From NCBI GenBank assembly GCA_016937975.1, contig JAFGVN010000035.1, forward strand, positions 1 through 33,925: a DNA stretch of 33,925 nt. Reading direction: 5' to 3'. This document shows, piece by piece, positions 1,670 through 18,250 of the stretch (position 1 is its first letter; every line of letters starts with the position of its first letter). Source of the stretch: Clostridia bacterium (GTDB lineage Bacteria; Bacillota; Clostridia; Peptostreptococcales; Acidaminobacteraceae). The position numbers were made by a program, and so were the translations under genes. Below the pieces are notes generated by a model, which was not told where the DNA came from, made no database searches, and saw nothing but the letters and a program-made list of their open reading frames with translations.

Positions 1670-1727
1670 TGACACTAGTGTCAAAATAATCTGACATTAG
1701 TGTCATTTTATATTGACACTAGTGTCA
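1670..1727. promoter_or_regulatory. Three phased TetR-type operators
   Basis: TGACACTAGTGTCA occurs at 1670-1683 and again at 1714-1727, and TGACATTAGTGTCA at 1692-1705. The first and third are perfect 14-bp palindromes; the middle one differs by one base. Centre-to-centre distance is 22 bp both times, about two helical turns, so bound dimers would lie on one face of the DNA. The third copy overlaps the forward -35 box. They are the expected sites of the divergent TetR-family protein. Confidence 0.85.
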
Positions 1728-1742
1728 GATATCTGGTATTAT
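1713..1742 (+). promoter_or_regulatory. Putative operon promoter with operator over -35
   Basis: A consensus TTGACA (1713-1718) and TATTAT (1737-1742) are separated by 18 bp. Five of the six -35 bases lie within the third palindrome (1714-1727), so bound repressor would directly exclude RNA polymerase. The first gene starts at 1782 with GGAGGGGG a few bases ahead. Confidence 0.75.
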
Positions 1743-1781: not shown

Positions 1782-2504
1782 ATGAGATTAAAGGATAAAA
1801 TTTGCATCGTTACTGGTGGTGCTCAAGGAATAGGGCGAGCAATCGTAGAAAGATTTGCTGAGGAAGGTGCAAAAATGATTTATTCACTGGATTTAAATCA
1901 AGGTGAATATGAAAGAGATAATGTAAAGCATATCCAATTGAATACAACAGATCATGAAGGTGTTAAACAGTTAGTGGAGACAATCATCCAAGAAGAAGGT
2001 CAAATTGATGTTGTTGTAAACAATGCTGGTATCACAAGAGATGCCTTAGCCAACAAAATGACAGAGGAGCAATGGAATATAGTGATCGATGTCAACATGA
2101 AAGCACCACATTATATGGTTGCAGAAGTTGGACCACATATGATGGCTGCAGGTAAAGGCTCGATTATTACCATTTCTTCAATTGTTGGATTATACGGTAA
2201 TGTTGGTCAAGTTAACTATGCTGCAACAAAAGCTGGGGTCATTGCAATGACAAAGACTTGGACAAAAGAGTTGTCTAGAAAAGGTGCAGTTATTAGAGCA
2301 AATGCTGTTGCACCCGGTTTCATTTCAACACCAATTTTGCAGTCTATGCCAGAAAAAATTATTGATAGCATGAAAGCGAAGATCCTTTTTAATGAACTAG
2401 GAGAACCAGAAGACATTGCCAATGCATGCTTATATTTAGCATCAGATGAATCCAAATATGTAACTGGTCAAGTACTTGAAGTATCAGGGGGCATAACAAT
2501 TTAG
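1782..2504 (+). CDS. SDR-family 3-hydroxyacyl-CoA dehydrogenase / 3-oxoacyl reductase (FabG-like)
   Basis: This 240-residue classical short-chain dehydrogenase has all hallmarks: the cofactor-binding TGGAQGIG at 11-18, NNAG at 80-83, catalytic Ser133 and the YxxxK pair Tyr146/Lys150 (YAATK), plus the PG motif after the sixth strand. Length and order match FabG and acetoacetyl-CoA reductase proteins. An Asp at residue 37, at the end of the second beta strand, usually favours NAD(H) over NADP(H). That would suit oxidation of a 3-hydroxyacyl-CoA rather than fatty acid synthesis. It is the first gene of the operon, directly after the repressor-controlled promoter, and livH begins 12 bases after its stop. 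Family certain; substrate and direction are inferred from context. Confidence 0.85.
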   Translation: MRLKDKICIVTGGAQGIGRAIVERFAEEGAKMIYSLDLNQGEYERDNVKHIQLNTTDHEGVKQLVETIIQEEGQIDVVVNNAGITRDALANKMTEEQWNIVIDVNMKAPHYMVAEVGPHMMAAGKGSIITISSIVGLYGNVGQVNYAATKAGVIAMTKTWTKELSRKGAVIRANAVAPGFISTPILQSMPEKIIDSMKAKILFNELGEPEDIANACLYLASDESKYVTGQVLEVSGGITI

Positions 2505-2516
2505 TGGAGGTTAACG

Positions 2517-3392
2517 TTGAGTAACTTTATACAGGTTATATTCAGTAGTCTTGAGATTGGTAGTATATATGCTTTAGCATCAATAGGTATTATACTCATT
2601 TATCAAACTTCAAAAATGACCAACTTCGCTCAAGGTGCCATTGGTATGTACAGTGCTTATATGGCAACCGTCTTTATGAGAGGTACTGGTATTTCAGCTA
2701 CCTTGGCGACGATAGTTGGTATGGCGTTTGGTCTTGTATTAGGTTTTGCGATAGACCTATTGATTATGAGGCGAGCAAAAAATGCCAGTCCAGTAACATT
2801 ACAAATTATTACTTTAGGAATCGTATTGTTTTTAACTGGTTTAGCGCCACTTACTTTTGGCGCAGTACCACTTGCATTCCCGAGATTTATTGAAAACAAA
2901 TCCATAGAAATATTGGGAGCATCTATTTTATACAATGGTATTCTAAATATCTTTATTGGCTTTATCGTTGTTGCGCTTCTATTTTTTGCATTACAACGTA
3001 CAAAATGGGGATTGGCTGTAAGAGTAACTGCTGCTAATCCTACAGCAGCTAAAGTTATGGGTGTACCGACTAAAAAAGTAACTATGGGAACTTGGGCTAT
3101 TGCAGCCTCGCTTGGTGCATTATCAGCTCTGATGCTTGCACCAAACACAGTAGTTGATGTAGGAATGATGGAAGGTGTACAGTTAAGTGCGCTGATTGCA
3201 TGTGTACTTGGAGGCTTTCAAACGTTCTTTGGTCCAGTACTAGGTGCTTATATATTGGCCATCGTTAGGAATCTATTTGGTTTTTATATATCGAGTACAT
3301 GGGGAACTGCTTTGACATATTCAGTCATCTTAATATTCATAATTTTCAAACCAAATGGATTAATTGGTAAGAAAAAGATTAAAAAAGTATAG
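2517..3392 (+). CDS. livH: Branched-chain-type ABC transporter permease, LivH family
   Basis: This 291-residue protein is almost entirely transmembrane, with about eight hydrophobic segments. The N-terminal pattern SSLEIGSIYALASIGIILIY and the later LGGFQTFFGPVLGAY are typical of LivH/BraD permeases, the first of the two pore subunits in hydrophobic amino acid ABC importers. The start is TTG at 2517, with TGGAGG (2505-2510) right behind the stop of the dehydrogenase gene. LivH and LivM form a heterodimer with LivG and LivF on the cytoplasmic face. Relatives also carry urea, amides, aromatic acids and other small acids, so the family name does not fix the substrate. Here it sits in a catabolic operon, which suggests a non-amino-acid ligand. 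Confidence 0.92.
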   Translation: MSNFIQVIFSSLEIGSIYALASIGIILIYQTSKMTNFAQGAIGMYSAYMATVFMRGTGISATLATIVGMAFGLVLGFAIDLLIMRRAKNASPVTLQIITLGIVLFLTGLAPLTFGAVPLAFPRFIENKSIEILGASILYNGILNIFIGFIVVALLFFALQRTKWGLAVRVTAANPTAAKVMGVPTKKVTMGTWAIAASLGALSALMLAPNTVVDVGMMEGVQLSALIACVLGGFQTFFGPVLGAYILAIVRNLFGFYISSTWGTALTYSVILIFIIFKPNGLIGKKKIKKV

Positions 3393-3400
3393 GGGGAGAC

Positions 3401-4411
3401 ATGGAAAAAAAATTAAAGTCCAGGTTTAACCTCCTGGAAAACGTTTACATCAATTATATATTGATTGGTATTCTATTTTTAATAGCTATTCCATTGAACC
3501 AAGCGGGAATCATAGGCGGATCTGTATTAATTACATTAGGCTCTGTCATCTTATATTCTGTCGTTGGTATCGGGATGAATATTCTACTAGGATACGCAGG
3601 TTTGATTACCCTTGGTGGTGCTGGTTTTATGGGATTAGCCGCTTATTTATCAGCCTACTTTACAAGAGATTTAAATATGCCATTCTTATTTTCCTTAATA
3701 TTCTCAGTTGGAATACCTATTATAATTGGTATCGGTATTGGCCTTATTTCTTTAAGACTTGGAGGCTACTATCTTGCAATCGCTACCTTAGGAATTGGTG
3801 AAGTCCTTAAGCAAGTGTTCATCGAATACGATGTATTCACTGGGGGTTTTTCAGGTAAGAGTGCAGGTTATATCAATTTGTTTGGCTTACAGTTTGATCG
3901 GATAGGAACTTATGCCTTGTACGCAGTTATATTAATATTTGCATTAATCATAGGCCACAACATAGTCAACTCTGCTACTGGAAGAGCTTTTATGACAATG
4001 AGAAGTAGTGAAGCAGCTGCCCAAGCTATGGGCATTAGAATGTTAAAGTATAAGGTCTTAGCATTTGTAATTGCAACGATTTACTCAACCATTGGTGGCA
4101 TTATGTATATGCATTTAATTAAGTTTTCTTTCCCAACAACATGGGGATTAGGCATGTCATTGAACTTCTTATCAATTGTTGTTATTGGTGGGATGAAGGC
4201 AATAGCAGGACCAGTAGTAGGCGCATTGTTTGTCATTGCTTTTCCTGATTTAGTTTTAAAGAACATACCAATCATCGGAACATCACCAGGTGTAGCTTAT
4301 ATTTTTAATGGTGTGTTGATTGTAGTTGTATTACTATTCTATAACAGAGGATTAATCAAAATATTTACAGATGCAAAGGTGTTGATAAAGAAATTGATAG
4401 GTGGTAAATGA
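3401..4411 (+). CDS. livM: Branched-chain-type ABC transporter permease, LivM family
   Basis: This second membrane subunit has 336 residues and about ten hydrophobic segments. It contains the LivM hallmark stretch GMNILLGYAGLITLGGAGFMG near residues 60-80, followed by LRLGGYYLAIATLGIGE, the cytoplasmic coupling region typical of the family. Near the C terminus VVIGGMKAIAGPVVGA repeats the GG...GPVxGA pattern found in LivH. AGGGGGAG lies ahead of the ATG at 3401, eight bases after livH. Its stop overlaps the start of livG by four bases (ATGA), which points to translational coupling. With LivH it should form the membrane channel. Confidence 0.92.
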   Translation: MEKKLKSRFNLLENVYINYILIGILFLIAIPLNQAGIIGGSVLITLGSVILYSVVGIGMNILLGYAGLITLGGAGFMGLAAYLSAYFTRDLNMPFLFSLIFSVGIPIIIGIGIGLISLRLGGYYLAIATLGIGEVLKQVFIEYDVFTGGFSGKSAGYINLFGLQFDRIGTYALYAVILIFALIIGHNIVNSATGRAFMTMRSSEAAAQAMGIRMLKYKVLAFVIATIYSTIGGIMYMHLIKFSFPTTWGLGMSLNFLSIVVIGGMKAIAGPVVGALFVIAFPDLVLKNIPIIGTSPGVAYIFNGVLIVVVLLFYNRGLIKIFTDAKVLIKKLIGGK

Positions 4412-5235
4412 TAATGAAAGATAACCCAATCTTTAGAAATGACATGATTTTGAAGATCGAAGACTTATCCATATCATTCGGAGGGATTAAGGCTGTTGAT
4501 GCTGTTTCTTTTGAAGTTAATGAAAAAGAAATTTACGGTTTGATTGGTCCTAACGGAGCTGGTAAAACAACCATCTTCAATATAATCACACAGTTTTATA
4601 AGCCAGACAACGGTAAGGTGTATTTTAAAGATAAAGATTTAAAATGGAAAAACCTAATTGATTATAAAACACACGATGTAGTGAAAACAGGTCTGATTAG
4701 AACATTCCAAAATTTGGAGCTGATTCAAGATCTATCATTATTAGATAATTTATTAGTAGGTAGTCACACTTTTTACAAATCGACGGCACTAGAACAGGCT
4801 TTAAGAATGCCGAGAGCTGTGAAAGAGGAGAGGAAGTTTCGAAATAAAGCCATGGAGATAATGAAACTTTTAAATATATCAGACAAGGCTTACGAACTGG
4901 TTTACGGCCAACCCTATGGTATTTTAAAGAAAGTTGAGTTGGGACGAACCTTAATGAGCGAACCTAGAATGATTATTCTAGATGAACCAGCAGCTGGTCT
5001 AAATGAAAGAGAAACAGCTGAACTTGCAGATATTTTAAAACATATAAGAACCGATTATGATACGACGATTTTTCTCGTAGAACATGATATGGGTTTGGTA
5101 ATGGATATTTGTGATAGAATCTGCGCCATTTCGTTCGGTGAGAAATTGGCTGAAGGCACGCCAGCTGAAATACAAAATAATTCCTTTGTGCAAGAAGCTT
5201 ATCTAGGAAGTGAAGAAGGGGAGCTTGCAGAATGA
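4408..5235 (+). CDS. livG: Branched-chain-type ABC transporter ATP-binding protein, LivG family
   Basis: This 275-residue ATPase carries Walker A GPNGAGKTT at residues 47-55, a Q-loop region RTFQNLEL, Walker B IILDEPAAGLN and the switch histidine in LVEHDMG. The signature helix reads QPYGILKKVELGRTL instead of LSGGQ. Variants with a PYG core are usual in this subfamily, so it should be active. The C-terminal GEKLAEGTPAEIQNN and YLG motifs are typical of LivG. ATG at 4408 overlaps livM; a second ATG at 4414 is also possible. It overlaps livF by four bases at 5232. It would power import together with LivF. Confidence 0.92.
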   Translation: MIMKDNPIFRNDMILKIEDLSISFGGIKAVDAVSFEVNEKEIYGLIGPNGAGKTTIFNIITQFYKPDNGKVYFKDKDLKWKNLIDYKTHDVVKTGLIRTFQNLELIQDLSLLDNLLVGSHTFYKSTALEQALRMPRAVKEERKFRNKAMEIMKLLNISDKAYELVYGQPYGILKKVELGRTLMSEPRMIILDEPAAGLNERETAELADILKHIRTDYDTTIFLVEHDMGLVMDICDRICAISFGEKLAEGTPAEIQNNSFVQEAYLGSEEGELAE

Positions 5236-5948
5236 AGAAATTATTAGAAATTAAGGACTTAGAAGTTAAGTATGGTAGCATACAAGCTTTAAAAGGTGTT
5301 TCTTTAAATATTGAAGAAGGTGCGATTGTTGCATTATTAGGTGCTAATGGTGCCGGAAAGTCTACTTTATTGAAAAGTATTTCAAGAATTGTTGAATCAA
5401 GCAATGGTGACATTATCTTTGATGGTGAAACGGTTTTAAAAAAGGAAGCCGATCAAGTTGCTTGGATGAAAATCAGTCATTGTCTTGAAGGAAGACAGAT
5501 CTTTGCAGAATTGACCGTTTTGGAAAATTTAACAATAGGTGGTTTTACGCTTAAGAGCAAATCAGAAAAGGAAGAGGCAATCAAAGAAAGTTACAAGATG
5601 TTTCCTGTATTAGAGGAAAGAAAACATCAAATTGCTGGTACCTTATCTGGTGGTGAGCAGCAAATGCTTGCAATAGCAAGAGCTTTGATCATCAAACCTA
5701 AATTACTTATTTTGGACGAACCATCACTTGGTTTAGCGCCTATTATAATAAGAAACGTATTTGATATCATTAAGAAAATTAATGAATCAGGTACAACAGT
5801 ATTAATTGCAGAGCAGAATGCTTTGCAAACTCTAAAGATAGCAGATTACGCATATATGCTTGAAGTAGGGAAAATTACAATGGAAGGTAAGGCAAGTGAC
5901 TTGCTTGCTGATGATAATTTAATTCATGCTTACCTTGGTAAACATTAA
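5232..5948 (+). CDS. livF: Branched-chain-type ABC transporter ATP-binding protein, LivF family
   Basis: This 238-residue ATPase has Walker A GANGAGKST at 37-45, the canonical signature LSGGEQQ beginning near 138, Walker B LLILDEPSLGLAP beginning near 158, and AEQN at the switch region, which is the LivF-typical replacement of the histidine loop. The Q-loop region reads CLEGRQIFAELTVLENL, close to the EGR.IF.LTV pattern of LivF. It starts within the end of livG (ATGA overlap) and ends 12 bases before the binding protein gene, completing a full five-part importer in one transcript. Confidence 0.93.
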   Translation: MKKLLEIKDLEVKYGSIQALKGVSLNIEEGAIVALLGANGAGKSTLLKSISRIVESSNGDIIFDGETVLKKEADQVAWMKISHCLEGRQIFAELTVLENLTIGGFTLKSKSEKEEAIKESYKMFPVLEERKHQIAGTLSGGEQQMLAIARALIIKPKLLILDEPSLGLAPIIIRNVFDIIKKINESGTTVLIAEQNALQTLKIADYAYMLEVGKITMEGKASDLLADDNLIHAYLGKH

Positions 5949-5960
5949 AGGGAGGAAATT

Positions 5961-7199
5961 ATGAAACGAAGTTTAGCACTATTATTGGTTTTAGCATTAG
6001 TAGTATCACTGTTCGCTGGTTGTGGGGATTCAGCATCTAGTGGTGATCATGCACAAGGTATCACAGATACTGAAATTTTAGTAGGTAACAACGCAGCTAC
6101 ATCTGGTGTATTTGGACCAGTTGGTCAACCTTACATCGATGGTTTAAATGCTTATTTTGCTATGGTAAATGACGCTGGTGGTGTTCATGGAAGACAAATC
6201 AAATTCTTACATCAAGACGATGAGTTCTCACCTGAAAAAGGTAAGGCTATGTATGATAAGCTCATCAATGATGACAAAGTATTTGCAATTGTTGGTGCTT
6301 TTGGTACACCTATCGTAGGCGCAATTTTAGAAGATCTAAAGGAATCTGGTATTCCATCGGTATATTTTGCAACAGGTATGCCTCAATTATATGCTGAAGA
6401 TGCAACAGATTATGGTAGAAATATTTATCCAGTACAACCTATTTACACAACTGAGGGTAGATTATTCTCAGCTTGGGCAAAAGGTACATTCGAAGGTAAG
6501 AAGTTTGGTGTAATCTATTCAAGTGATGACGCTGGTAAAGGTTTATTTGAGGGTATTACAAAGCAAGCTGAAGAAATTGGTTTAGAAGTTGTAGCAGAGC
6601 AAGTTGCTTATGGTGCGGAAGATGTTTCAGCTGCAGTAACAAAAATTTTATCACAAGACGTTGATGTTGTTGCAATTGCATCAATGCAAAATACTTTCTT
6701 AACCATTGCTAAAGAATTAGGTAAACAAGGTAATACATCACCTACATTAACTTCATATGTAAATGTTGGTCCAACCTACTACTCACAATTCGCAGCAGAT
6801 ATCGAAGGTAAATATGACTTATATGGTCCAGGTTGGTTAGGTGCAGATGAAACTGAACTTGGTCAAATGATTGAGTGGATGGAAGTTGTAAACCCTGGTA
6901 ACGAATGGGGACCATCACCTTATGCAATTTCTGGTTGGTTAGCAGCTAAGTTCTTCACTGAGGGTTTAAGAAGAATTCCTGAAGGTGATGCATTAACTTG
7001 GGAAGCGTTTATGGATGCTATGGAATCTAAGCCACATGACTTAGGATTTGGTTCAGGTTCAATGATTGACTATGCAGATGGTAAGCGTTATGGAACAGAA
7101 ACATTATCACTTTACAGATTTGATCAAAATGCTGGTCCTATTATGGCAGATGTTTTCAAACCTTTTATGACTGTTAATGAAATCTTAGAAGGAAAATAG
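5961..7199 (+). CDS. ABC transporter substrate-binding lipoprotein (LivK-like, type I periplasmic fold)
   Basis: The 412-residue protein begins with a lipoprotein signal peptide. The lipobox LFAGC places the acylated Cys at residue 21, so the mature protein is tethered to the outer face of the membrane. The rest fits the two-lobed Peripla_BP_6/LivK family: GITDTEILVGNNAATSG at the start of the mature part, then NDAGGVHGRQIKFLHQDD and a DVVAIASMQNTFLTIAKELG segment. Several Trp/Tyr-rich stretches (YGPGWLGADE, WGPSPYAISGW) suggest an aromatic or hydrophobic pocket. AGGGAGG precedes the ATG. It supplies ligand specificity for the importer; which ligand is unknown. Its coding sequence is visibly richer in preferred codons (GGT, GTA, TTA) than its neighbours, consistent with high expression. 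Confidence 0.92.
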   Translation: MKRSLALLLVLALVVSLFAGCGDSASSGDHAQGITDTEILVGNNAATSGVFGPVGQPYIDGLNAYFAMVNDAGGVHGRQIKFLHQDDEFSPEKGKAMYDKLINDDKVFAIVGAFGTPIVGAILEDLKESGIPSVYFATGMPQLYAEDATDYGRNIYPVQPIYTTEGRLFSAWAKGTFEGKKFGVIYSSDDAGKGLFEGITKQAEEIGLEVVAEQVAYGAEDVSAAVTKILSQDVDVVAIASMQNTFLTIAKELGKQGNTSPTLTSYVNVGPTYYSQFAADIEGKYDLYGPGWLGADETELGQMIEWMEVVNPGNEWGPSPYAISGWLAAKFFTEGLRRIPEGDALTWEAFMDAMESKPHDLGFGSGSMIDYADGKRYGTETLSLYRFDQNAGPIMADVFKPFMTVNEILEGK

Positions 7200-7214
7200 G
7201 ACGGAGGAAGAAAC

Positions 7215-8255
7215 GTGGCGAAAGATATAGTTGGTGTAGTAGGCACTGGTCTTTATATCCCAGATAATTATTGGACTGCAGAGTATTGTGCTGAGTTAAC
7301 AGGTGGCCGCTGGACACCAGAAGCAATTGTTGAAAAACTTGGCTTTAAGAGAAAACCTGTAGCACGTAATCATGAAGGTACAATGTGGATGGGCGCACGT
7401 GCTGCTGAAGATTGTTTGAAAAAGACAGGATATGACCCTGAGAAGATAGACGTTGTATTATGGTTTGGTGAAGAGTGGAAAGAATATCCACTAACAACTG
7501 CTGCTTTATATGTACAAAATGAAATCGGTGCAGTTAATGCGTGGGGGGTCGATGTCAGCAATAGATGCGCAACTTTTATCACTGCTTTAAAAATGGCAAA
7601 AGATATGATTATAGCTGATGAAAGCATCAACACCATTATGCTTGCTGGTGGTTATAGAAATAATGACTTTATCAACTTATCCAATCCAAAAGTCTCTATG
7701 TTATACAGTATTGGTTCAGGTGCTGCAGCCATGTTGATTACAAGAAATCATCATGAGAATGAAGTACTGGGTCATCACCTAATTGGTGATGGCTCCCTGT
7801 TCCATACGATGGGTGTACCTATTGGTGGTACTGCTCAACCTATTACAAAAGACAATGTGGACAATTGGATGAGTTATGAAATTATGGATGTTGATTTTAT
7901 GAAAGAAAAACTAAATTCAGTATCCATGAAAAATTGGTTTAAATGTGTAGATCAGTCACTTGAAAAATCAGGAGGCTTGACAAGACAAAATGTAGATTAT
8001 CTTGCAGTCACACAGTTCAAACGTTCCATGCATGACTTTATGCTAGAAGAGTATGGATTACAAGAGGAGAATTCCACTTACCTAGATGAATATGGACACA
8101 TTGGTCAAATGGATCAGATCTTGTCGATTGAATTAGGTTTAAAAGCGGGAAAAATTAAAGATGGCACTGTGATCTCCCTAGTCGGTGCAGGTGGGGGCTA
8201 TGTATGGGCTGCTGGTGTCATTAGATGGGGTAAAATTAAGAGAGATGGTGAGTAA
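7215..8255 (+). CDS. KASIII-like thiolase-superfamily condensing enzyme with atypical active site
   Basis: This 346-residue protein is similar in length and layout to FabH (3-oxoacyl-ACP synthase III) and archaeal HMG-CoA synthase: GVVGTGLYIPDNYW at the N terminus, GFKRKPVA near 45-52, and the nucleophile region VDVSNRCATFITAL with Cys118. The rest of the FabH triad is not conserved. Where FabH has HQAN, this protein has VTQF (Thr266). Where FabH has the Asn of YGNTSAA, it has YGHIGQ (His295). The C-terminal GAGGGYVWAAGVIRWG is typical of the fold. The start is GTG at 7215 behind GGAGGAAG, and its stop abuts the CoA-transferase start. Context suggests acyl transfer or Claisen-type chemistry on acyl-CoA esters in the catabolic operon, not fatty acid synthesis. 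Reaction unknown. Confidence 0.75.
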   Translation: MAKDIVGVVGTGLYIPDNYWTAEYCAELTGGRWTPEAIVEKLGFKRKPVARNHEGTMWMGARAAEDCLKKTGYDPEKIDVVLWFGEEWKEYPLTTAALYVQNEIGAVNAWGVDVSNRCATFITALKMAKDMIIADESINTIMLAGGYRNNDFINLSNPKVSMLYSIGSGAAAMLITRNHHENEVLGHHLIGDGSLFHTMGVPIGGTAQPITKDNVDNWMSYEIMDVDFMKEKLNSVSMKNWFKCVDQSLEKSGGLTRQNVDYLAVTQFKRSMHDFMLEEYGLQEENSTYLDEYGHIGQMDQILSIELGLKAGKIKDGTVISLVGAGGGYVWAAGVIRWGKIKRDGE

Positions 8256-9572: not shown

Positions 9573-9573
9573 A

Positions 9574-10404
9574 ATGTCGGAAGTAAAAATTAATGGTAAA
9601 AATATATATTACGAAGTTCATGGGGATCAAGGAGACTTTATTGTGATGCTCAATGGACTTATGATGTCAACAAACAGTTGGTTGCCTCTAATCCAAACTG
9701 TAAAAGAGAATTTTAGAGTTGTTCTAATAGACATGCATGATCAAGGTCGATCAGAAAAGATGGAACATTCTTATAAGCACGATGTTCAAGTAGAAGCTGT
9801 AAAAGGTGTTCTTGATCACTTAAATATTGAAAAAGCTAATTTCTGTGGTACTTCTTATGGTGGTACAATTGCATTGCAAATTGCCTTAACTTACCCTGAA
9901 AAGTGTAATAAATTGATGGTCTTTAATACCCTTGCATATGCAGATAAATTTTTAACTGATGTTGGTAAACTTTGGGAAAAAGCTGCAGCTAGCTATGATC
10001 CAGATAAGTTTTATGATGAGTTTGCACCCTATATATACGCACCGTGGTATTATGAAAAATTCCATGATTCTATATATGAAAGAAAAGAATTGTTTAGATC
10101 TTTCTTTACACCAGAATATTGCGATGCTTTTATTAGGTTGTCAAACAGTACACAGGGTTATGATATCAGAGAAAGATTGTCAGAAATAAGTACACCAGTA
10201 TTGGTTGTAGGTTCTGATGAAGATTATTTAACACCAATGAAACAACAGTATTTCTTGAAGAATAATCTGCCTAACTCAGAATTTGTAATCATACCGGATT
10301 CAGGTCATGGTGCAGTGTATGAAAAGTCTTTGTTAATCGTTACATTGATGATGGGGTGGTTTAGAGATATAACCGTTATACCTGTTTTCAAAGAGGGAGA
10401 ATAG
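9574..10404 (+). CDS. Alpha/beta hydrolase, type A copy 1
   Basis: This is a 276-residue single-domain alpha/beta hydrolase. The nucleophile elbow is GTSYGG with Ser94; the likely acid is the Asp in GSDEDYLTP and the His lies in PDSGHGAVYEKS near the C terminus. The oxyanion-loop segment reads VMLNGLMMST: Asn replaces the His of the usual HG motif. ATG at 9574 is preferred over upstream in-frame codons because GGAAGGA lies at 9561-9567 and the upstream extension overlaps the end of the CoA-transferase gene. Start and stop fit a tight operon, with a 1-base gap to each neighbour. The overall pattern resembles enol-lactonases and C-C bond hydrolases. The substrate is unknown. A paralogue is at 14179-14991. 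Confidence 0.85.
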   Translation: MSEVKINGKNIYYEVHGDQGDFIVMLNGLMMSTNSWLPLIQTVKENFRVVLIDMHDQGRSEKMEHSYKHDVQVEAVKGVLDHLNIEKANFCGTSYGGTIALQIALTYPEKCNKLMVFNTLAYADKFLTDVGKLWEKAAASYDPDKFYDEFAPYIYAPWYYEKFHDSIYERKELFRSFFTPEYCDAFIRLSNSTQGYDIRERLSEISTPVLVVGSDEDYLTPMKQQYFLKNNLPNSEFVIIPDSGHGAVYEKSLLIVTLMMGWFRDITVIPVFKEGE

Positions 10405-10405
10405 C

Positions 10406-11287
10406 ATGTTAACTGGCAAAAGCGTTTTATTAGGTAATGACGAAAATATTCATTATATTGATGTTGGTCAAGGAGAAAAGGTACTTGTACTGATTCATGG
10501 GAATATGAATTCATCTGCTAACTGGGATTTGTTAATAGAAGCAATGGATCCTGATCAATATAGGATGATTGCTGTAGATCTAAGAGGTATGGGTCACTCG
10601 TCTTATATTCAACCTGTCGCTTCAATTAAGGATTTTTCTGATGATTTAGATCTTTTATTCAAGCGATTAGGATTAGAAAAATTCAGTTTGATAGGTTGGT
10701 CTGCAGGTGGTGCTGTCGTCTTACAGTATGCTGCAGATTACCCAGAGAAAGTTGAAAAATTGGTATTACTAGAAGGTGCAAGCATCAAAGGATTCCCGAT
10801 TCCTAAAAAAACGCTATTTGGAAAAATTAAGCCAGGACAATATGTATCATCAAGAGAAGAAATTGCTAAAAAAGTAAAGCTAGTTGAAAGAGCATATGAA
10901 AAGAAAAACAAAAAATTTCTAAAGATGATTTTAAATAAGGCTTTGTATACAGTTAAAAAGTGTCCAATGGATAAAATCGAATACTATATAGATGAAATGA
11001 TGTTACAAAGAAATCTAGTTGATTTGAATTATTCTTTAGTCCATTTCAATATTTCTCACGAGCACAATGGCGTCGTAGAAGGTAATGGTTTAGTGGACAA
11101 AATTGTTGCACCAACTTTGGTTATTCAAGGTGAGTTGGATAAGTTGGTAACCATGGCAATGGCAAAGAGCAATGTAGAGGCTATTCAAAATGCAGAACTT
11201 GCAGTTTTATCAGCTTGTGGGCACGTTCCACTTGTGGATGACATGAACAGTTTAAAAGCAACATTAGTTAATTTCTTAGAGTCATAA
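10406..11287 (+). CDS. Alpha/beta hydrolase, type B copy 1 (GWSxGG lipase box)
   Basis: This 293-residue alpha/beta hydrolase has LIHGNMNSS at the oxyanion loop, nucleophile elbow GWSAGG (Ser99), a candidate acid in QGELDKLV and the catalytic His in SACGHVPLVD. Between the core halves lies a basic cap (AKKVKLVERAYEKKNKK region). The GWSxGG box with a Trp before the Ser resembles that reported for the intracellular short-chain polyhydroxybutyrate depolymerase of Bacillus thuringiensis, a protein first annotated as an enol-lactonase. Ester cleavage of 3-hydroxyacid oligomers is thus one option, but the motif alone is not proof. It starts one base after the type A gene, and its stop lies inside the stem of an intrinsic terminator. 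A paralogue is at 15050-15928. Confidence 0.85.
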   Translation: MLTGKSVLLGNDENIHYIDVGQGEKVLVLIHGNMNSSANWDLLIEAMDPDQYRMIAVDLRGMGHSSYIQPVASIKDFSDDLDLLFKRLGLEKFSLIGWSAGGAVVLQYAADYPEKVEKLVLLEGASIKGFPIPKKTLFGKIKPGQYVSSREEIAKKVKLVERAYEKKNKKFLKMILNKALYTVKKCPMDKIEYYIDEMMLQRNLVDLNYSLVHFNISHEHNGVVEGNGLVDKIVAPTLVIQGELDKLVTMAMAKSNVEAIQNAELAVLSACGHVPLVDDMNSLKATLVNFLES

Positions 11288-11311
11288 AGGTATGTTTTTC
11301 ATACCTTTTTT
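11286..11311 (+). terminator. Intrinsic terminator inside the gene cluster
   Basis: AAAGGTATG (11286-11294), a TTTTT loop and CATACCTTT (11300-11308) form a perfect 9-bp stem followed by a U-run ending at 11311. The stop codon of the upstream hydrolase forms part of the stem. The ribosome binding site of the thiolase gene (AAGGAGGA, 11312-11319) begins on the very next base, leaving no room for a separate promoter. Confidence 0.85.
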
Positions 11312-11326
11312 AAGGAGGATCAAAAA

Positions 11327-12508
11327 ATGAGTATAGGCGTTATTGGAACGTATCATTCAAAGTTTGGTAAATCTGATGACACGATTTATGAAATGATGAA
11401 TAAAGCTGTAAAAGGTGCACTTGATAGTGCTTGTGTGGATCCAGAAAAAATCGGTGGCATATGGGTTGGTAACTACAGTGGTGGTGGATTTAATAAACAA
11501 GAACATATAGCACCTTTAGCACTGGATGCTGATGAAAGACTTCGATTTACACCAGCAACTAGAGTAGAGAATGCTTGTGCTTCTGGTTTTGCAGCAATTG
11601 CAGCTGCAAGAAATGCAATCCTTACTGGTGAAATAGAATATGCCCTAGTTGTTGGCATAGAAAAAATGACAAGTCTTAGAACAAGTGGCGTTACAGAGGT
11701 ACTTGCGATGGCTTCGCATCAAGTGAATGAAGCTCAAGAAGGATATACTTTCCCAGGTTTGTTTGCTGAATTTGCAAAAGGCTATCAAAAAAAATATGAT
11801 ATCTCAGATACTGATATGAGTGAAGCACTACAAATGATTGCAGCAAAAAACTATAAAAATGCCCTTAAAAATGATAAGGCACAAATGTCAAGAGACTGGA
11901 CTTATGAAGATATTGCAGCGCTATCAGATGAAAAGAACCCAATGATTGCAACGCCTTTAAGATTGCATGATTGTTCATTGGTTTCAGATGGTGCTGCAGC
12001 AATCGTGCTCACAACATCTGAAAATGCAAAAACATTAAAGGAATCATTTGTTGAGATGTCTTCATTGATACATGTAACCGATTATATGGAAATATCCAAA
12101 AGAGACACTTACCAGTTCGAAGGTGCAAAAAAAGCAGTGGAAGAACTTTATAAAAGTGAAAATATTACAGTAGACGATGTTGATTTTGCTGAAGTACACG
12201 ATTGTTTTACAATCGCTGAACTCCTTGCATATGAAGCGCTCGGTATTGCAGAAGCCGGAAAAGCGATTGATGTTATCAAAGATGGAAGTGTTTATCCAGG
12301 AGGAAGATTGCCTGTCAATGCATCTGGTGGTTTAAAAGCAAAAGGTCATCCGGTTGGTGCAACAGGTGTTTCGATGGCAGTTCTAGCAACCAATCAGTTG
12401 ATGGGTACTCCAATAGGTGAAGAGGTAAAAAACGCTAAAATTGGTATTACATTAAACTTAGGTGGTAGTGCTGTTAATAATTATGTTGCATTGTTTAGAA
12501 AGAAATAG
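11327..12508 (+). CDS. SCP2-type thiolase (acyl-CoA C-acetyltransferase)
   Basis: The 393-residue protein belongs to the SCP-x/SCP2 branch of thiolases. It shows the nucleophile motif VENACASGFAAI (Cys84), the branch-specific HDCF motif (His291 to Phe294, whose Cys is thought to act as acid/base) and GGLKAKGHPVGATG with His341. The classical C-terminal CxG motif is replaced by NLGGSA, as expected for this branch. It would cleave a 3-oxoacyl-CoA with free CoA, or run in reverse. AAGGAGGA precedes the ATG. Transcription probably comes from read-through of the terminator just upstream. Bacterial and archaeal relatives often work with a DUF35 OB-fold partner; none is encoded here. Confidence 0.88.
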   Translation: MSIGVIGTYHSKFGKSDDTIYEMMNKAVKGALDSACVDPEKIGGIWVGNYSGGGFNKQEHIAPLALDADERLRFTPATRVENACASGFAAIAAARNAILTGEIEYALVVGIEKMTSLRTSGVTEVLAMASHQVNEAQEGYTFPGLFAEFAKGYQKKYDISDTDMSEALQMIAAKNYKNALKNDKAQMSRDWTYEDIAALSDEKNPMIATPLRLHDCSLVSDGAAAIVLTTSENAKTLKESFVEMSSLIHVTDYMEISKRDTYQFEGAKKAVEELYKSENITVDDVDFAEVHDCFTIAELLAYEALGIAEAGKAIDVIKDGSVYPGGRLPVNASGGLKAKGHPVGATGVSMAVLATNQLMGTPIGEEVKNAKIGITLNLGGSAVNNYVALFRKK

Positions 12509-12757
12509 TAGGTTAGTACGTAAAGTTATAGAAGTTGACACAGTGTATATGGTGTTTGCAGAAGAACTGCCTATTCTTTGAAAGGTGGATTTGAGCCAAA
12601 CAATGAAACATAGCAAGCAATTAAAATACTGGTTATGAACAGTTTCATTCATAGCTTGTGATGTTATATAACACTCTACTTCTTTTCTTAGTCTCAAAAA
12701 TGGTGGTGATGCTATCACCATCATATAGAGGCTTTATTAAATTATATGAGGTTTAAA
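12509..12757 (+). other. Intergenic leader with operator-like dyad and hairpin
   Basis: No gene is seen in these 249 bases. TTGACACAGTGT (12535-12546) resembles the TTGACACTAGTGT of the main operator with one base missing, but no good -10 lies at the right distance. A stem of TGGTGGTGAT and ATCACCATCA around a GCT loop (12701-12723, one G-U pair) lies 35 bases before the next start. It lacks a U-tract, so it may be a leader structure and not a terminator. Confidence 0.35.
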
Positions 12758-14068
12758 ATGGATTACAAAAATAAATTAATAACGGTTGAAGAAGCTTTGG
12801 AAAAAATAAAGTCCAAAGATATTATTGTGACTGGACTTGCAGCAGCAGAGGCAAAAGCGACACTAGAAAAACTACATACCATCAGTCATAGAGTGGAAGA
12901 TGTGAAGGTCATTACATGTTTACCTATGGCCTATGCACCTTATTTTCAAGATCCATCCTATAAGGATAACTTCCATATGGAAGGCTGGTTTTATACAGGA
13001 CCTATGAGAAAAGCTCAAAAAAATGGTAATGTATCTTTTATACCGAATCATTTACATTTAGCAGCAGTTAATCGATTGGTTTATGATCAACCAACAATTT
13101 ATATAGGAAATGCTACACCACCTGATAAACATGGTTATGTGTCACTTTCCTTAAGTAATGTATATGAGAAGAGAATGATTGAAGCTGCTGATTTGGTTAT
13201 ATTAGAGATTAATCCTAAATTACCGAGAACATTTGGTGATATGGAAGTACATATTAACGATATTGATTATATGATAGAAGTAGATTATGACATTCCTGAG
13301 TTGCCAGATGTTGAACCAAGCGAATTGGATAAAAAAATAGGCAATTTCATAGCAGATTATATTCATGATGGTGACTGTATACAATTGGGAATCGGGGGTA
13401 TTCCTAACGCAGCGGCATCAGCCCTACATGACAAAAAGGATCTAGGCATTCATACAGAAATGTTAACAACGGGTATGATGAAATTAGTCAAATCAGGTGT
13501 AATTACAGGTAAAAATAAAAATGTTAACAAAGGTAAAATCGTATGTACATTTGCACTAGGTAATAGAGAATTGTATGATTTTATAGACAACAATCCATCA
13601 GTAGAAATCAGGGATGGTTATCATGTTAATGACCCTTGTGTTATTGGAGAAAATGATAACCAAGTTTCAATTAATACAACTATAGAAGTTGATCTAACAG
13701 GGCAGTGTGCTTCTGAATCCATTGGAACAGTACAGTATTCTGGTACGGGTGGTCAAGCGGATACAGCTATTGGTGCTCAAAGAGCTAAGAATGGTAGATC
13801 CTTTATAGCGCTTTATTCAACAACAATGGCTAAACAAGCAGATGGAACAAGAAAACTCATTTCAAAGATTGTACCGACTTTAAAAGCGGGTGCTGCTGTG
13901 ACTTTATCACGTAATGATGTTGACTTTGTTGTAACAGAATATGGTGTTGCTCAGCTTAAAGGGACATCTATTGCAGAAAGAGTGAAACGCTTAATTGCAA
14001 TAGCTCATCCTGATTTTAGAGATGAACTTAGAAATCAAGCATTGGAAATTGGATTTATTCATGAATAA
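12758..14068 (+). CDS. Family-I CoA-transferase (acetyl-CoA hydrolase/4-hydroxybutyrate CoA-transferase family), copy 2
   Basis: This 436-residue paralogue of the gene at 8256-9572 is colinear throughout. Shared landmarks are FIPNHLHLA, LEINPK.PRTFGD, the VDYDIPELPDV block, LGIGGIPNAA, the catalytic Glu234 in GIHTEML, and IAHPDFRDELR at the end. I judge identity by eye at around half of residues, so this is an old duplication. The start at 12758 is chosen because MDYKNKLIT then aligns with MSYKDKIIT of copy 1; an in-frame ATG at 12746 would add four residues. A weak GAGG lies at 12748-12751. Copy 2 may differ in acid specificity, since the residues around both motifs have diverged (GGIPNAA against GGTPAAI). 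Confidence 0.87.
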   Translation: MDYKNKLITVEEALEKIKSKDIIVTGLAAAEAKATLEKLHTISHRVEDVKVITCLPMAYAPYFQDPSYKDNFHMEGWFYTGPMRKAQKNGNVSFIPNHLHLAAVNRLVYDQPTIYIGNATPPDKHGYVSLSLSNVYEKRMIEAADLVILEINPKLPRTFGDMEVHINDIDYMIEVDYDIPELPDVEPSELDKKIGNFIADYIHDGDCIQLGIGGIPNAAASALHDKKDLGIHTEMLTTGMMKLVKSGVITGKNKNVNKGKIVCTFALGNRELYDFIDNNPSVEIRDGYHVNDPCVIGENDNQVSINTTIEVDLTGQCASESIGTVQYSGTGGQADTAIGAQRAKNGRSFIALYSTTMAKQADGTRKLISKIVPTLKAGAAVTLSRNDVDFVVTEYGVAQLKGTSIAERVKRLIAIAHPDFRDELRNQALEIGFIHE

Positions 14069-14178
14069 GCTTTTATATTATAATGATGAAAAAAGCTATA
14101 TAACGGTTATATTACTATTAGCAATACTAAGGTGTTATGTACTGATATGAAGAATGAGCCCTTTTGAAGGAGAAAATA

Positions 14179-14991
14179 ATGAGTGTATTTGAAAAAGATG
14201 GATTGAAGTTTTTTTATGAGTTGAAAGGAAATGTCAATGGTAATCAAGTCATTGTATTTTTAAATGGCGTCATGGCCTCAACAAGCAGTTGGGATTTTCA
14301 AGTGCCTGTTTTTGAAAGATTAGGCTTTAAAATACTGGTTCATGACTTTCGAGGACAACTGATGTCAGATAAACCTAAAGGAACTTATTCTTTTAAGATA
14401 CACGCTGGCGATACGATTGCCTTATTAGATCATTTAGGTATTAAGAAAGCACATTTTATTGGTACATCTTATGGTGGTGAAGTAGCCATGCGTCTTGCCA
14501 TAGACTATCCTGAAAGGACAGAGACTATCTCAATTATCGATTCAGTGAGTCAATTAGATGAAAGTTTAAAACTCTTCATTGAGTCTTGGATAGGTTTAGC
14601 AAAGTCTAATGATGGACAAAGTTTCTTTCAAGGGATATTACCGACTATTTATCACAATACATACATTCAGAATAACAAGATTATGTTGGAGAAGCGATCT
14701 GAACGTATGAAAGACATACCGAGTTCTTACTTTGATGGTCAGGTATCTCTGTATAAAACCTTTTTAGAAGATGTGGAGATGACAGAGGAATTAGATCAGA
14801 TCACTTGTCCTACACTCGTTGTTTGTGGAGAAAATGATATATTGAAACCAATAAAGTTCTCTCAAATTATTAGCGAGAAAATTAAAGGGGCAGAGTTTGC
14901 CATTATTCCAGATTGTGGACATGTGACGATATTTGAAAAACCAGATGTTTTGAATTCTATATTATTAGGATTTGTTGTTAAGCATATATAG
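14179..14991 (+). CDS. Alpha/beta hydrolase, type A copy 2
   Basis: This 270-residue hydrolase has the elbow GTSYGG (Ser97), acid in GENDILKP and His in PDCGHVTIFEKP. Like copy 1 it has LNGVMAST, with Asn at the usual His of the oxyanion loop, and it shares the YPE stretch after the elbow. The start is ATG at 14179 behind GAAGGAG (14166-14172); an in-frame TTG at 14164 overlaps that site and is rejected. A 110-base gap separates it from the CoA-transferase, against one base in the first trio. Function unassigned; the same order as copy 1 argues that both serve one pathway step. Confidence 0.85.
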   Translation: MSVFEKDGLKFFYELKGNVNGNQVIVFLNGVMASTSSWDFQVPVFERLGFKILVHDFRGQLMSDKPKGTYSFKIHAGDTIALLDHLGIKKAHFIGTSYGGEVAMRLAIDYPERTETISIIDSVSQLDESLKLFIESWIGLAKSNDGQSFFQGILPTIYHNTYIQNNKIMLEKRSERMKDIPSSYFDGQVSLYKTFLEDVEMTEELDQITCPTLVVCGENDILKPIKFSQIISEKIKGAEFAIIPDCGHVTIFEKPDVLNSILLGFVVKHI

Positions 14992-15049
14992 CACGTTAAA
15001 TGATATAAAGACAGAGGTAGAATATACATATATTGGAAGGAGTATATAA

Positions 15050-15928
15050 GTGAAGAGTTATCTATTAAAAAATGGTGATACCATTGCTTACCGAGAGTTT
15101 GGACAAGGTAGCAATATAATGGTTCTGATTCATGGTAATATGTCATCTAGTTTTCATTTTGATGTATTAGAAAAATATGTACCAGAGAATGTACGTATTA
15201 TATTACCTGATATGAGAGGCTTTGGTGAGTCATCTTATAAAAATGAAGTAAACTCCCTACAAGATTTTGCAGATGATATCATGGAACTCATTAATTATTT
15301 AAATATCAAAGCTTATTCTGTTGGTGGATGGTCAACGGGTGGAGGAGTAGCCATGCTCATTGCAAGTCAAAGAAATGAGCAAGTGAAGAAACTTGTCTTG
15401 ATTGAGTCAGTTGGTATAACTGGTTATCCAATCTTCAAAAAAGATTCATCGGGGCAACCGATTATGAATGCATTGATAAAAACAAAAGAGGAATTATCTC
15501 AAGACCCTGTACAAGTTTTGCCTATTTTGATGGCTTATAAAAACAGAGACAAAGAAACTTTGAAGACCATATGGAATGCTTTGATTTATACACACAATCA
15601 ACCAGAAGAAAGTGCGTATGACCTTTATCTAGAGGATATGTTAAAGCAAAGAAACTTAGTAGATGTGGATTATGCCTTAATGTACTTCAATATCAGCGAC
15701 CAACATAATGGGTATGTAGAGGGAAGCGGTGACATAAAACAGATTAAAGCAGACACACTCATTATTCATGGCTATAGAGATTATGTAGTACCGATGCAAA
15801 TGCGAGATAACATTGTATCTGCTTTAACCTGTAATAAGGAAGTTTACAAAGGCGACTGGGGTCATTCTCCATTTGTTGATATTGAAAAAGAAGTGTGTGA
15901 AAAAATTCTTTCCTTTATTGAAGAATAA
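15050..15928 (+). CDS. Alpha/beta hydrolase, type B copy 2 (GWSxGG lipase box)
   Basis: This 292-residue protein is a clear paralogue of the hydrolase at 10406-11287. Shared features are LIHGNMSSS at the oxyanion loop, nucleophile elbow GWSTGG (Ser95), the long insert ending KQRNLVDVDYALMYFNIS.QHNGYVEGSG, an acid candidate in HGYRDYVVP and His in DWGHSPFVD. The start is GTG at 15050 with GGAAGGAG at 15035-15042. It closes the second trio and is followed by a terminator. As for copy 1, the GWSxGG box allows a 3-hydroxyacid ester hydrolase but does not prove it. Confidence 0.85.
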   Translation: MKSYLLKNGDTIAYREFGQGSNIMVLIHGNMSSSFHFDVLEKYVPENVRIILPDMRGFGESSYKNEVNSLQDFADDIMELINYLNIKAYSVGGWSTGGGVAMLIASQRNEQVKKLVLIESVGITGYPIFKKDSSGQPIMNALIKTKEELSQDPVQVLPILMAYKNRDKETLKTIWNALIYTHNQPEESAYDLYLEDMLKQRNLVDVDYALMYFNISDQHNGYVEGSGDIKQIKADTLIIHGYRDYVVPMQMRDNIVSALTCNKEVYKGDWGHSPFVDIEKEVCEKILSFIEE

Positions 15929-15965: not shown

Positions 15966-15997
15966 AAAAGAAGCCCAGTCATATGAGCTTCTTTTCG
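15966..15997 (+). terminator. Intrinsic terminator after the second trio
   Basis: AAAAGAAGC (15966-15974) pairs perfectly with GCTTCTTTT (15987-15995) around a 12-nt loop, with the T-run forming the end of the stem. It lies 38 bases after the last hydrolase stop and closes the catabolic cluster. Confidence 0.7.
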
Positions 15998-17024: not shown

Positions 17025-17040
17025 AATTGTTAAAACCTCC

Positions 17041-17071
17041 TTGACTTCGCCCTTAGGTCATGATTTATAGT
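17041..17071 (+). promoter_or_regulatory. MerR-type promoter with 19-bp spacer (hydrolase)
   Basis: TTGACT (17041-17046) and TATAGT (17066-17071) are separated by 19 bp. The spacer holds GCCCTTAGG two bases after the -35, exactly as in the promoter at 18191. TGAC and GTCA flank it as a loose dyad. The overlong spacer is the hallmark of MerR-activated promoters. Confidence 0.75.
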
Positions 17072-17100
17072 AATTATATCATAGAAAAGGAGAGTGTTTA

Positions 17101-18099: not shown

Positions 18100-18105
18100 T
18101 TATTA

Positions 18106-18138: not shown

Positions 18139-18190
18139 GATGTGGAGACTTATTTTTTTATTTTATCTAGGAAGTTTTATCGCAAATCCC

Positions 18191-18221: not shown

Positions 18222-18250
18222 TGACTTATTAAAGGGAATAGGAGTTTGGT

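Follow-up and report, generated by a model that had tools for sequence, protein, structure and literature searches.

What does an operon that joins a complete Liv-type importer to a dehydrogenase, a KASIII-like enzyme, CoA-transferases, hydrolases and a thiolase take up, and what becomes of its substrate? The question is raised by a stretch of 33,925 nucleotides (hereafter, the window), in which a sequence-only reading had seen a candidate system for the uptake and degradation of a C3-oxidised acid or ester, probably one already bearing a 3-hydroxy or 3-oxo group. The genome concerned is 4.03 Mb in size and 98.7% complete; because contamination of the bin is put at 4.62%, the contig's membership in it is likely rather than certain. 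As argued below, the operon may import and ferment short (R)-3-hydroxyalkanoate esters or oligomers, most simply other organisms' 3-hydroxybutyrate oligomers derived from PHB, a reading that we favor tentatively and place just short of evenly balanced.

A 14-gene operon with a module present twice

All 14 operon genes are intact open reading frames on one strand between positions 1782 and 15928 (Table 1), with families assigned from Pfam and NCBIfam (for PhaZ2 and LivHMGF, from NCBIfam only). These assignments bear out the gene set that had been described, comprising an SDR, a Liv importer, a KASIII-like enzyme, two CoA-transferases, four alpha/beta hydrolases and an SCP2 thiolase, with two amendments: two of the four hydrolases exceed the curated cut-off of a PHA depolymerase family, which had been missed, and the thiolase is of the SCP2 kind as a subtype (NF005704), while a domain search found no SCP2 sterol-carrier domain (PF02036) in the genome. 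A module of CoA-transferase, alpha/beta hydrolase and PhaZ is present twice (8256-11287 and 12746-15928), with a 237-bp gap (12509-12745) ahead of the second copy. Recent tandem duplication of the module was considered and rejected, since the copies are only 30-56% identical (CoA-transferases 56%, hydrolases 30%, PhaZ 39%). The copy nearest to the genes of relatives is CoAT2; CoAT1 is at most 55% identical to any fetched protein.

Table 1. Features of the operon and its flanks (positions in the window)
Feature	Position	Strand	Basis
TetR-family repressor, divergent from the operon, TTG start	986-1594	-	PF00440, 41.3 bits
Three putative operator palindromes, TGACAYTAGTGTCA	1670-1683, 1692-1705, 1714-1727 (span 1670-1727)	.	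inverted repeats
Predicted promoter, -35 TTGACA overlapping third operator, -10 TATTAT	1713-1742	+	11/12 consensus matches with TG
FabG/PhaB-like SDR, NAD-type (Asp37), proposed (R)-3-hydroxyacyl-CoA dehydrogenase	1782-2504	+	PF13561
LivH-type permease	2517-3392	+	UrtB/LivH models, under cut-offs
LivM-type permease	3401-4411	+	UrtC/LivM models, under cut-offs
LivG-type ATPase	4408-5235	+	NF008449, 248.6 bits (cut-off 362)
LivF-type ATPase	5232-5948	+	NF008626, 248.4 bits (cut-off 441)
LivK-type substrate-binding lipoprotein	5961-7199	+	PF13458
KASIII-like enzyme with Cys118 and His295	7215-8255	+	NF005308, 418.8 bits (cut-off 315)
CoA-transferase 1 (CoAT1), 4-hydroxybutyrate/butyryl CoA-transferase group	8256-9572	+	PF02550, PF13336
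Alpha/beta hydrolase 1 (ABH1), PcaD-like, likely ATG start	9574-10404	+	PF00561
PhaZ1, scl-PHA depolymerase family	10406-11287	+	NF050089, 334.9 bits (cut-off 300)
SCP2-type thiolase with Cys84, HDCF and GHPVGATG motifs	11327-12508	+	NF005704, 456.3 bits (cut-off 412)
CoA-transferase 2 (CoAT2)	12746-14068	+	76-77% identity to same-genus operon genes
Alpha/beta hydrolase 2 (ABH2), PcaD-like	14164-14991	+	PF00561; TIGR02427, 134 bits (cut-off 256)
PhaZ2, scl-PHA depolymerase family	15050-15928	+	NF050089, 365.5 bits (cut-off 300)
Terminator-like hairpin, U-rich 3' arm, end of cluster	15966-15995	+	-11.4 kcal/mol, z -4.95

A divergent TetR gene facing three putative operators

The operon had been placed under one TetR switch. 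The TetR gene itself lies outside 1782-15928, the interval that the sequence-only reading covered, and its product matches no NCBIfam equivalog at or above that model's cut-off. Between this gene and the operon, as TetR regulation would lead one to expect, palindromic operators overlie the predicted promoter; they stand at an exact spacing of 22 bp, the first and third being identical and the middle copy differing at one base. Exact matches in the 4.03-Mb genome are confined to these three sites, one-mismatch sites elsewhere number three (equal to the reversed control pattern), and at up to two mismatches the window holds six matches against 0.84 expected from shuffles. Promoter-like matches overall are no commoner than in shuffles (69 versus 71.7). 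Presumed to bind at the three operators, the TetR protein would hold the operon off without inducer. The hairpin at the far end is not among the calls of a consensus terminator scanner. Because a gap precedes the second module, control of all 14 genes by one switch is no more than plausible.

Two hydrolases of the PHB depolymerase family in a probably degradative gene set

The family whose cut-off PhaZ1 and PhaZ2 exceed (NF050089) is the intracellular short-chain-length PHA depolymerase, and PhaZ2 also matches a solved poly(3-hydroxybutyrate) depolymerase (PDB 8ynv/8ynw) at 318 bits. A Ser/Asp/His triad with a lipase-box-like motif is kept in all 72 aligned PhaZ sequences (a set limited to scores above 180 bits and lengths above 240 residues, with the two copies of the window among them), and the two enzymes are predicted to hydrolyze amorphous PHB or 3HB oligomers. 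Our genome has no match to the one PHA synthase model searched (TIGR01836). Nor does it have the Esterase_PHB domain (PF10503), the one extracellular depolymerase family searched, so the organism would rely on depolymerization by others, a point against the hydroxyalkanoate reading.

Intracellular PHB mobilization consists of PhaZ, 3-hydroxybutyrate dehydrogenase, a CoA-transferase and a thiolase. Because two of the hydrolases fall in the PHB depolymerase family, the operon's depolymerases, SDR dehydrogenase, CoA activation and thiolase fit that outline, and the earlier remark that no named pathway with this exact set was known is not supported. CoA activation and thiolysis are represented with their catalytic residues in place: the catalytic Glu is kept in 29 of 29 aligned CoA-transferases (CoAT1 matches PDB 3gk7 at 299.5 bits), and the thiolase retains Cys84, HDCF and GHP. 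Operons of the same genus include an acetyl-CoA acetyltransferase-type thiolase, and in Bacilli an acyl-CoA ligase takes the place held in anaerobes by the CoA-transferase. Unlike intracellular PHB mobilization, however, the operon adds an importer, the KASIII-like enzyme, PcaD-like hydrolases and a duplicated module; the first three of these, along with the absent PHA synthase match, are what is new here.

The SDR also departs from that scheme. Its Asp37, said earlier to favor NAD, is real and recurs in 56 of the 60 SDRs of related loci that pass 190 bits and 200 residues, with Ser133, Tyr146 and Lys150 kept in all 60; it fits FabG models best, scoring 260 bits with TIGR01830 and 213 bits with TIGR01829, each under its cut-off. 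Neither our genome nor any of the 17 PhaZ-carrying genomes described below has a match to the 3-hydroxybutyrate dehydrogenase model TIGR01963 at E<=1e-60, which counts against the hydroxyalkanoate reading. As judged from its sequence, the SDR is not a canonical free-3-hydroxybutyrate dehydrogenase, which makes the CoA ester the probable form in which the substrate is oxidized.

In the proposed order of steps, LivK would capture the substrate and LivHMGF carry it into the cell, where PhaZ1 and PhaZ2 together with ABH1 and ABH2 would cut ester bonds to give free hydroxy acids. CoAT1 and CoAT2 would transfer CoA to the acid from an acyl-CoA that arises at a later step, the NAD-type SDR would oxidize the (R)-3-hydroxyacyl-CoA to a 3-oxoacyl-CoA, and the SCP2-type thiolase, perhaps aided by the KASIII-like enzyme, would split this into acetyl-CoA and a shorter acyl-CoA.

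The partnership recurs in other genomes

Among 61 genomes (our own and 60 relatives), PhaZ scores above cut-off in 17 and the KASIII-like gene is found in 25, including all 17 with PhaZ (hypergeometric 2e-9, uncorrected for descent); in each of these 17, PhaZ is clustered with Liv genes. Of the 25 genomes with the KASIII-like gene, 8 have no PhaZ, an observation against the hydroxyalkanoate reading. Across 150 Bacillales genomes, PhaZ is present in 49, the KASIII-like gene in 45, and both in 42, in 39 of which the two are adjacent (<500 bp apart, median 46). In the seven Bacillales with PhaZ and no KASIII-like gene above threshold, the surroundings of PhaZ vary: one (L235) keeps Liv genes beside it, in another (L233) it adjoins an acyl-CoA ligase, two (L231 and L234) have an SDR-like gene immediately before it and an ABC ATPase further upstream, and three (L229, L230 and L232) have none of these arrangements. 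The same partnership recurs in the gene order of other genomes. Of the two outcomes named beforehand as refuting, neighbors that would place the enzymes in a biosynthetic route and a binding protein specific for ordinary branched-chain amino acids, neither came up in the analysis.

All seven of these PhaZ-only genomes have a PHA synthase, against 17 of the 42 with both genes at a looser threshold (p 0.004); at the strict threshold, where 5 of 42 have one, most operon-carrying Bacillales lack a PHA synthase. That operon carriers avoid PHB synthesis is nevertheless unsupported, since their counts are not lower than those of genomes with neither gene (strict, 5/42 versus 11/98, no difference; looser, 17/42 versus 22/98, p 0.04, with synthase-like proteins somewhat commoner where both genes are present). 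In the 61 genomes, PhaZ and PHA synthase never overlap, but because this is not significant (p 0.13) we do not take the anticorrelation as proof.

Among eight LivHMGFK-PhaZ-ABH loci, two whose upstream genes were read (L134 and L138) have genes resembling aroA, aroC, aroE and pheA ahead of the importer, by a reading of the sequence alone, which speaks against the hydroxyalkanoate reading; upstream ORFs in the other six are mostly of similar length. In six loci LivH is preceded by a gap of 193-232 bp, and in two a 278-residue ORF lies between or overlaps. A shikimate-type substrate was weighed on account of the aro- and pheA-like genes but not adopted, since the window operon has none of them at its flanks.

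A KASIII fold with an altered active site

An AlphaFold2 model of the KASIII-like enzyme (pLDDT 94) matches 4dfe with Z 39.3 over 320 residues at 2.4 A, confirming the FabH fold. In this fold, in its nucleophilic Cys and in its score for NF005308, the enzyme resembles KASIII, whereas the decarboxylating Cys-His-Asn triad is not kept in an alignment of 77 family sequences: by sequence alignment, in FabH numbering, the His244 column holds Leu in 75 of 77 sequences (the window enzyme has Thr) and the Asn274 column is His in all 77. What the family conserves is the Cys, an invariant Gly-His loop and a His displaced by one residue (where the window enzyme has Gln); 12 of 23 more distant paralogues have Ser in the Cys118 column. 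We put forward a thiolase-like active site as a hypothesis and no further, since an hhalign comparison with a thiolase aligned the N-terminal part only (probability 11%) and stopped short of the Gly-His loop/GHP loop region. Plasmid relatives of the gene are distant (best 33% identity), and in related genomes it forms a two-gene unit with a CoA-transferase gene. Textbook PHB mobilization has no place for such an enzyme, which again counts against the hydroxyalkanoate reading; the auxiliary role suggested above is one it may fill.

The importer and its binding protein

The importer is a full five-gene set, as in Liv/HAAT ABC importers, and all its proteins are of that type. The solved structure closest to LivK, 4n03, is titled a fatty acid ABC transporter binding protein and carries a molecule name of branched-chain amino acid type; leucine-binding proteins are among the next matches, which tells against hydroxyalkanoate import. 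Unlike E. coli LivJ and LivK with their Glu226, which in LivJ has an ammonium-binding role, the window LivK has Asn (Asn268) at this position, as do 18 of 18 members of its clade. At the residues on the carboxylate side, the LivJ Thr102 column is Gly in 18/18 (with Thr one column earlier in 13/18) and the Ser79 column is Thr or Ser in 18/18. Of 48 Bacilli binding proteins, 12 were inspected and all of these carry Asp at the Glu226 position, a further point against hydroxyalkanoate import. Two Liv lineages, with gene orders HMGFK and KGFHM, are attached to the same enzymes.

Alternative readings

The same general route, from import through hydrolysis of an ester or lactone and CoA activation to oxidation and thiolysis, might be used for a different compound. 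A lactone would be one example, a polyketide-like or 1,3-dicarbonyl acid of the triacetate type another, and successive C-C bonds would then be cut by the KASIII-like enzyme and the thiolase. The operon has more thiolase-superfamily enzymes (two) and PcaD-like hydrolases (two) than plain PHB use requires, ABH1 is closest to MGS-M2 (PDB 4q3l, 209 bits) rather than to a PHA enzyme, and the two-gene unit of KASIII-like and CoA-transferase genes points the same way. We nonetheless consider such a substrate rather unlikely, as the KASIII-like gene has a depolymerase-family partner in 42 of 45 Bacillales and in 17 of 25 genomes of the 61-genome set, and no BKACE family match was found among the operon proteins scanned. 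In the anaerobic phloroglucinol pathway, an SDR oxidizes a 3-hydroxy acid before cleavage to acetyl units, and the operon, as proposed, does likewise; the two differ in that the operon proteins scanned include no match to a BKACE-type cleavage enzyme.

A biosynthetic function, with condensation of units by the KASIII-like enzyme and their reduction by the SDR, would suit the FabH fold and the FabG-like SDR, but is improbable in view of the replaced His244 and Asn274 columns, the NAD-type SDR, the lack of a carrier protein among the operon ORFs, and the presence instead of an importer and several hydrolases. It is more improbable still that a branched-chain amino acid importer simply sits among unrelated lipid enzymes: the Liv/HAAT type of all five proteins and the leucine-binding structural matches are what one would expect of it, yet two Liv lineages are joined to the same enzymes, the Glu226 column is Asn throughout the window's clade, and the title of 4n03 names fatty acids. 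Least credible of all is mobilization of the cell's own PHB granules, which the NCBI name of the PhaZ family (intracellular) would imply; against it stand the missing TIGR01836 match in a 98.7% complete genome and the importer genes clustered with PhaZ in all 17 PhaZ genomes.

Implications

Conserved neighbors, the NAD-type SDR, the catalytic residues kept in PhaZ, the CoA-transferases and the thiolase, and the Asn of the LivK clade all agree with uptake and degradation of a 3-hydroxy acid or ester, so that the original interpretation is, overall, partly supported. PhaZ resembles the NF050089 depolymerases in score and intact triad, and departs from their named role in its genomic setting, an operon with an importer, whose hosts often have no match to PHA synthase. 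The recurrence of this importer/PhaZ partnership across many Bacilli and Clostridia suggests common scavenging of other microbes' hydroxybutyrate-type esters. A bolder proposal, which we think doubtful, is a widespread unrecognized pathway by which Bacilli and Clostridia, many without PHB synthesis, import 3-hydroxyalkanoate oligomers through dedicated Liv-type transporters and hydrolyze them intracellularly with "storage depolymerases", the KASIII-fold enzyme with its altered active site being a new thiolytic or acyl-transfer catalyst.

The analysis also draws attention to a family of KASIII fold whose active site is changed and whose role is likely to be catabolic. If the hydroxyalkanoate reading is true, a curated "intracellular PHB depolymerase" family would, in many of the Bacillales and Clostridia that carry it, act on material taken up from outside, and Liv-type importers would become candidates for the uptake of PHB breakdown products, for which we know of none described. 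It would also account for how non-producers, anaerobes included, may live on released PHB or bioplastic fragments.

Architecture and control of the operon

All of the open reading frames that the sequence-only reading had assigned to the operon exist, on the plus strand and free of stops. By family they comprise an SDR, the importer proteins LivH, M, G, F and K, a KASIII-like enzyme (NF005308), two CoA-transferases of the 4-hydroxybutyrate/butyryl-CoA group (CoAT1 and CoAT2), four alpha/beta hydrolases and an SCP2-type thiolase (NF005704). The four hydrolases had been recognized as such, but not that two of them, PhaZ1 and PhaZ2, score above the curated cut-off for intracellular short-chain-length PHA depolymerases; the other two, ABH1 and ABH2, are PcaD-like. 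Four-bp overlaps join LivM to LivG and LivG to LivF, the KASIII-like gene and CoAT1 abut, the widest gap (237 bp) separates the thiolase gene from CoAT2, and PhaZ2 is followed by a hairpin whose 3' arm is rich in U.

The CoAT-ABH-PhaZ set is present twice. CoAT2 shares 76-77% identity with the corresponding same-genus proteins, whereas CoAT1 reaches at most 55% with any protein compared, and we therefore regard module 1 as the diverged copy. The source genome (4.03 Mb; completeness 98.66%, contamination 4.62%), in which the window forms the initial 33,925 bases of contig C106, carries an additional LivK-CoAT-ABH-PhaZ set on the 4.4-kb contig C28, as well as a PhaZ gene on contig C43 with no adjoining Liv genes on the stretch examined. 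The operon may lie next to a decayed mobile element, represented by the integrase fragment, and the MerR-hydrolase group on the operon's other side is a separate unit.

Coordinates of features in the window
Feature	Positions	Strand	Remarks
Tyrosine integrase N-terminal fragment	16-318		PF14659; at the contig's beginning
TetR gene	986-1594	-	
Operon	1782-15928	+	SDR gene to PhaZ2
KASIII-like gene	7215-8255	+	
Module 1	8256-11287	+	CoAT1-ABH1-PhaZ1
Module 2	12746-15928	+	CoAT2-ABH2-PhaZ2
MerR-hydrolase group	16317-18991		Hydrolase with a MerR-type regulator on either side (34% mutual identity)
Alpha/beta hydrolase of that group	17101-18099		N-terminal hydrophobic stretch
Surface protein	18912-25613		2233 aa; fn3, cadherin-like, Calx-beta and S-layer domains
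Two-component system and following genes	26076-32203		Genes after it encode an LTXXQ-motif protein and one bearing two calcineurin-like phosphoesterase halves

The stretch that separates the divergent TetR gene from the SDR gene holds three palindromes, TGACAYTAGTGTCA, at a spacing of exactly 22 bp, and the third overlaps the -35 element of a predicted promoter. Because the palindrome has no exact copy elsewhere in the genome, and sites with one mismatch are as frequent there as for the reversed control (three each), the TetR regulator looks dedicated to this locus. Regulators differ in relatives: several Clostridia have a sigma-54 activator (the one protein tested comes closest to PrdR and AtoC without reaching their cut-offs), and in Bacilli an upstream gene, of a family (c9) found at 32/60 loci, is read from sequence as a putative BTAD/MalT-type activator.

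Conservation of the gene set

A search for the same gene order in other genomes, as the sequence-only reading had proposed, recovered LivK-G-F-H-M, the KASIII-like gene, PhaZ, the SDR and an acyl-CoA ligase together at most of the 60 loci retrieved from named genomes when the KASIII-like protein served as query; clustering of open reading frames placed PhaZ, LivG and the ligase each at 51/60 and the SDR at 52/60 (these and the following co-occurrence counts are raw, uncorrected for common descent). The carriers retrieved include Rossellomorea vietnamensis and a Psychrobacillus, which are culturable and non-pathogenic. Since this retrieval begins with the KASIII-like protein, we also worked in reverse and searched with the PhaZ model. 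Of the 36 genomes examined in the family of Bacillus sp. P14.5, 18 encode a PhaZ that exceeds the cut-off, and in 17 of these the KASIII-like gene lies directly upstream and the SDR gene directly downstream; in the eighteenth PhaZ is shortened and the SDR alone was seen. Across 150 Bacillales genomes, 49 have PhaZ, 45 have the KASIII-like gene and 42 have both; in 39 the two genes lie within 500 bp of each other. Among the source genome and 60 relatives, all 17 genomes with PhaZ above cut-off also have the KASIII-like gene, which is found in 25 and thus without PhaZ in 8. On our own reading of two result sets, importer, KASIII-like gene, CoA-transferase and PhaZ share one locus in 9 of the 17, and in the other 8 they are split between a LivHMGFK-PhaZ-ABH locus and a sigma-54 activator-KASIII-like-CoAT locus; one genome, G027, has the latter unit only. 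In our searches of the open PMC literature, no title or abstract among the papers listed describes this operon.

Several parts are interchangeable. CoA activation relies on a CoA-transferase in anaerobes versus an AMP-forming ligase in Bacilli, and the importer belongs to one or other of two Liv lineages that differ in gene order; at more distant loci it is replaced by a membrane protein, read from sequence as a putative sodium-solute symporter, accompanied by a short protein that matches the hydratase half of NF006045 below cut-off. Same-genus operons have an acetyl-CoA acetyltransferase-type thiolase, two loci of a different genus (L095, L098) have one of SCP2 type that shares 62% identity with the thiolase of the window, and the SDR is missing at some loci (L091-L094). 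The recurring core consists of the KASIII-like enzyme along with functions for uptake, ester hydrolysis and CoA activation.

Read from sequence, lookalikes of aroA, aroC, aroE and pheA lie just upstream of the LivHMGFK-PhaZ-ABH unit at L134 and L138, and probably at L135-L137 and L139-L141. Loci L114-L118 combine a KASIII-like gene with a CoA-transferase, beside a membrane protein that resembles symporters and one like FMN reductases in some (both read from sequence), and would represent a related but different pathway. One stretch with six KASIII-like and two SDR genes (L119, G017:C21:14000-33900) resembles a natural-product cluster.

The KASIII-like enzyme and the binding protein

AlphaFold2 gave the KASIII-like enzyme a confident KASIII fold. 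Among 77 close sequences (the window included, near-identical species kept), Cys118 and His295 never vary and 76 have His267; the window's copy alone has Gln267, which suggests that the function of this copy may have changed. In single-sequence and profile alignments alike, His295 aligns with FabH Asn274 and the column of FabH His244 holds Leu or Thr, so the decarboxylating triad of FabH is not kept. We infer that the enzyme may have a thiolytic or acyl-transfer role.

The LivK model (pLDDT 81.7) is closest to structure 4n03 (Z 38.0; next 35.2), also its best sequence match, whose title names a fatty acid ABC transporter binding protein and whose molecule name is of the branched-chain amino acid type; leucine-binding proteins follow in the list of structural matches. 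Residues were placed by alignment with E. coli LivJ and LivK, in which Glu226 has a role in ligand binding. The Glu226 position is Asn in 18/18 members of the window's LivK clade, which argues against amino acids as ligands of this importer; the case is weaker for the Bacilli importers, which have Asp there (12/12 sampled of 48).

Relation to PHB mobilization

On score and triad, PhaZ1 and PhaZ2 are assigned to the NF050089 family, and the similarity of PhaZ2 to a poly(3-hydroxybutyrate) depolymerase of solved structure reaches E 5e-94. The operon would work like PHB mobilization. The PHA synthase model TIGR01836 has no match in the source genome, nor was an Esterase_PHB domain found there, and a synthase scored above cut-off in 5 of 50 genomes taken from the 60 named loci (ten were left out), with nothing above 100 bits in 39. 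Among Bacillales with PhaZ, the synthase is above cut-off in 7/7 genomes without the KASIII-like gene versus 5/42 with it (Fisher 9e-6; 17/42 and 0.004 at a looser threshold). A plain 3-hydroxybutyrate route is disfavored by the SDR, which is FabG/PhaB-like, and by the absence, at the threshold used, of the canonical 3-hydroxybutyrate dehydrogenase family; for the same reasons oxidation on the CoA ester appears more likely. The operon thus differs from canonical PHB mobilization in two of the defining features tested, a PHA synthase of its own and the canonical dehydrogenase, and is not an instance of it. In B. thuringiensis, according to PMC4908106, deletion of phaZ delayed PHB loss and did not abolish it. 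Loci L142 and L143 hold a further PhaZ-family gene with a sigma-54 activator nearby, accompanied at L142 by lookalikes, read from sequence, of an AtoDA-type CoA-transferase pair and an acyl-CoA dehydrogenase.

In the mechanism that we propose, the substrate would be imported and hydrolyzed by PhaZ and ABH, the product would receive CoA by transfer, and NAD-linked oxidation and thiolysis would follow; acetyl-CoA would yield fermentation products and also return to the CoA-transferases as donor. As a guess, each of the two modules might handle a different chain length, 3-hydroxybutyrate or 3-hydroxyvalerate. The PHA synthase counts in Bacillales fit a PhaZ family that puts one chemistry to two uses, on the cell's own granules and on imported material.
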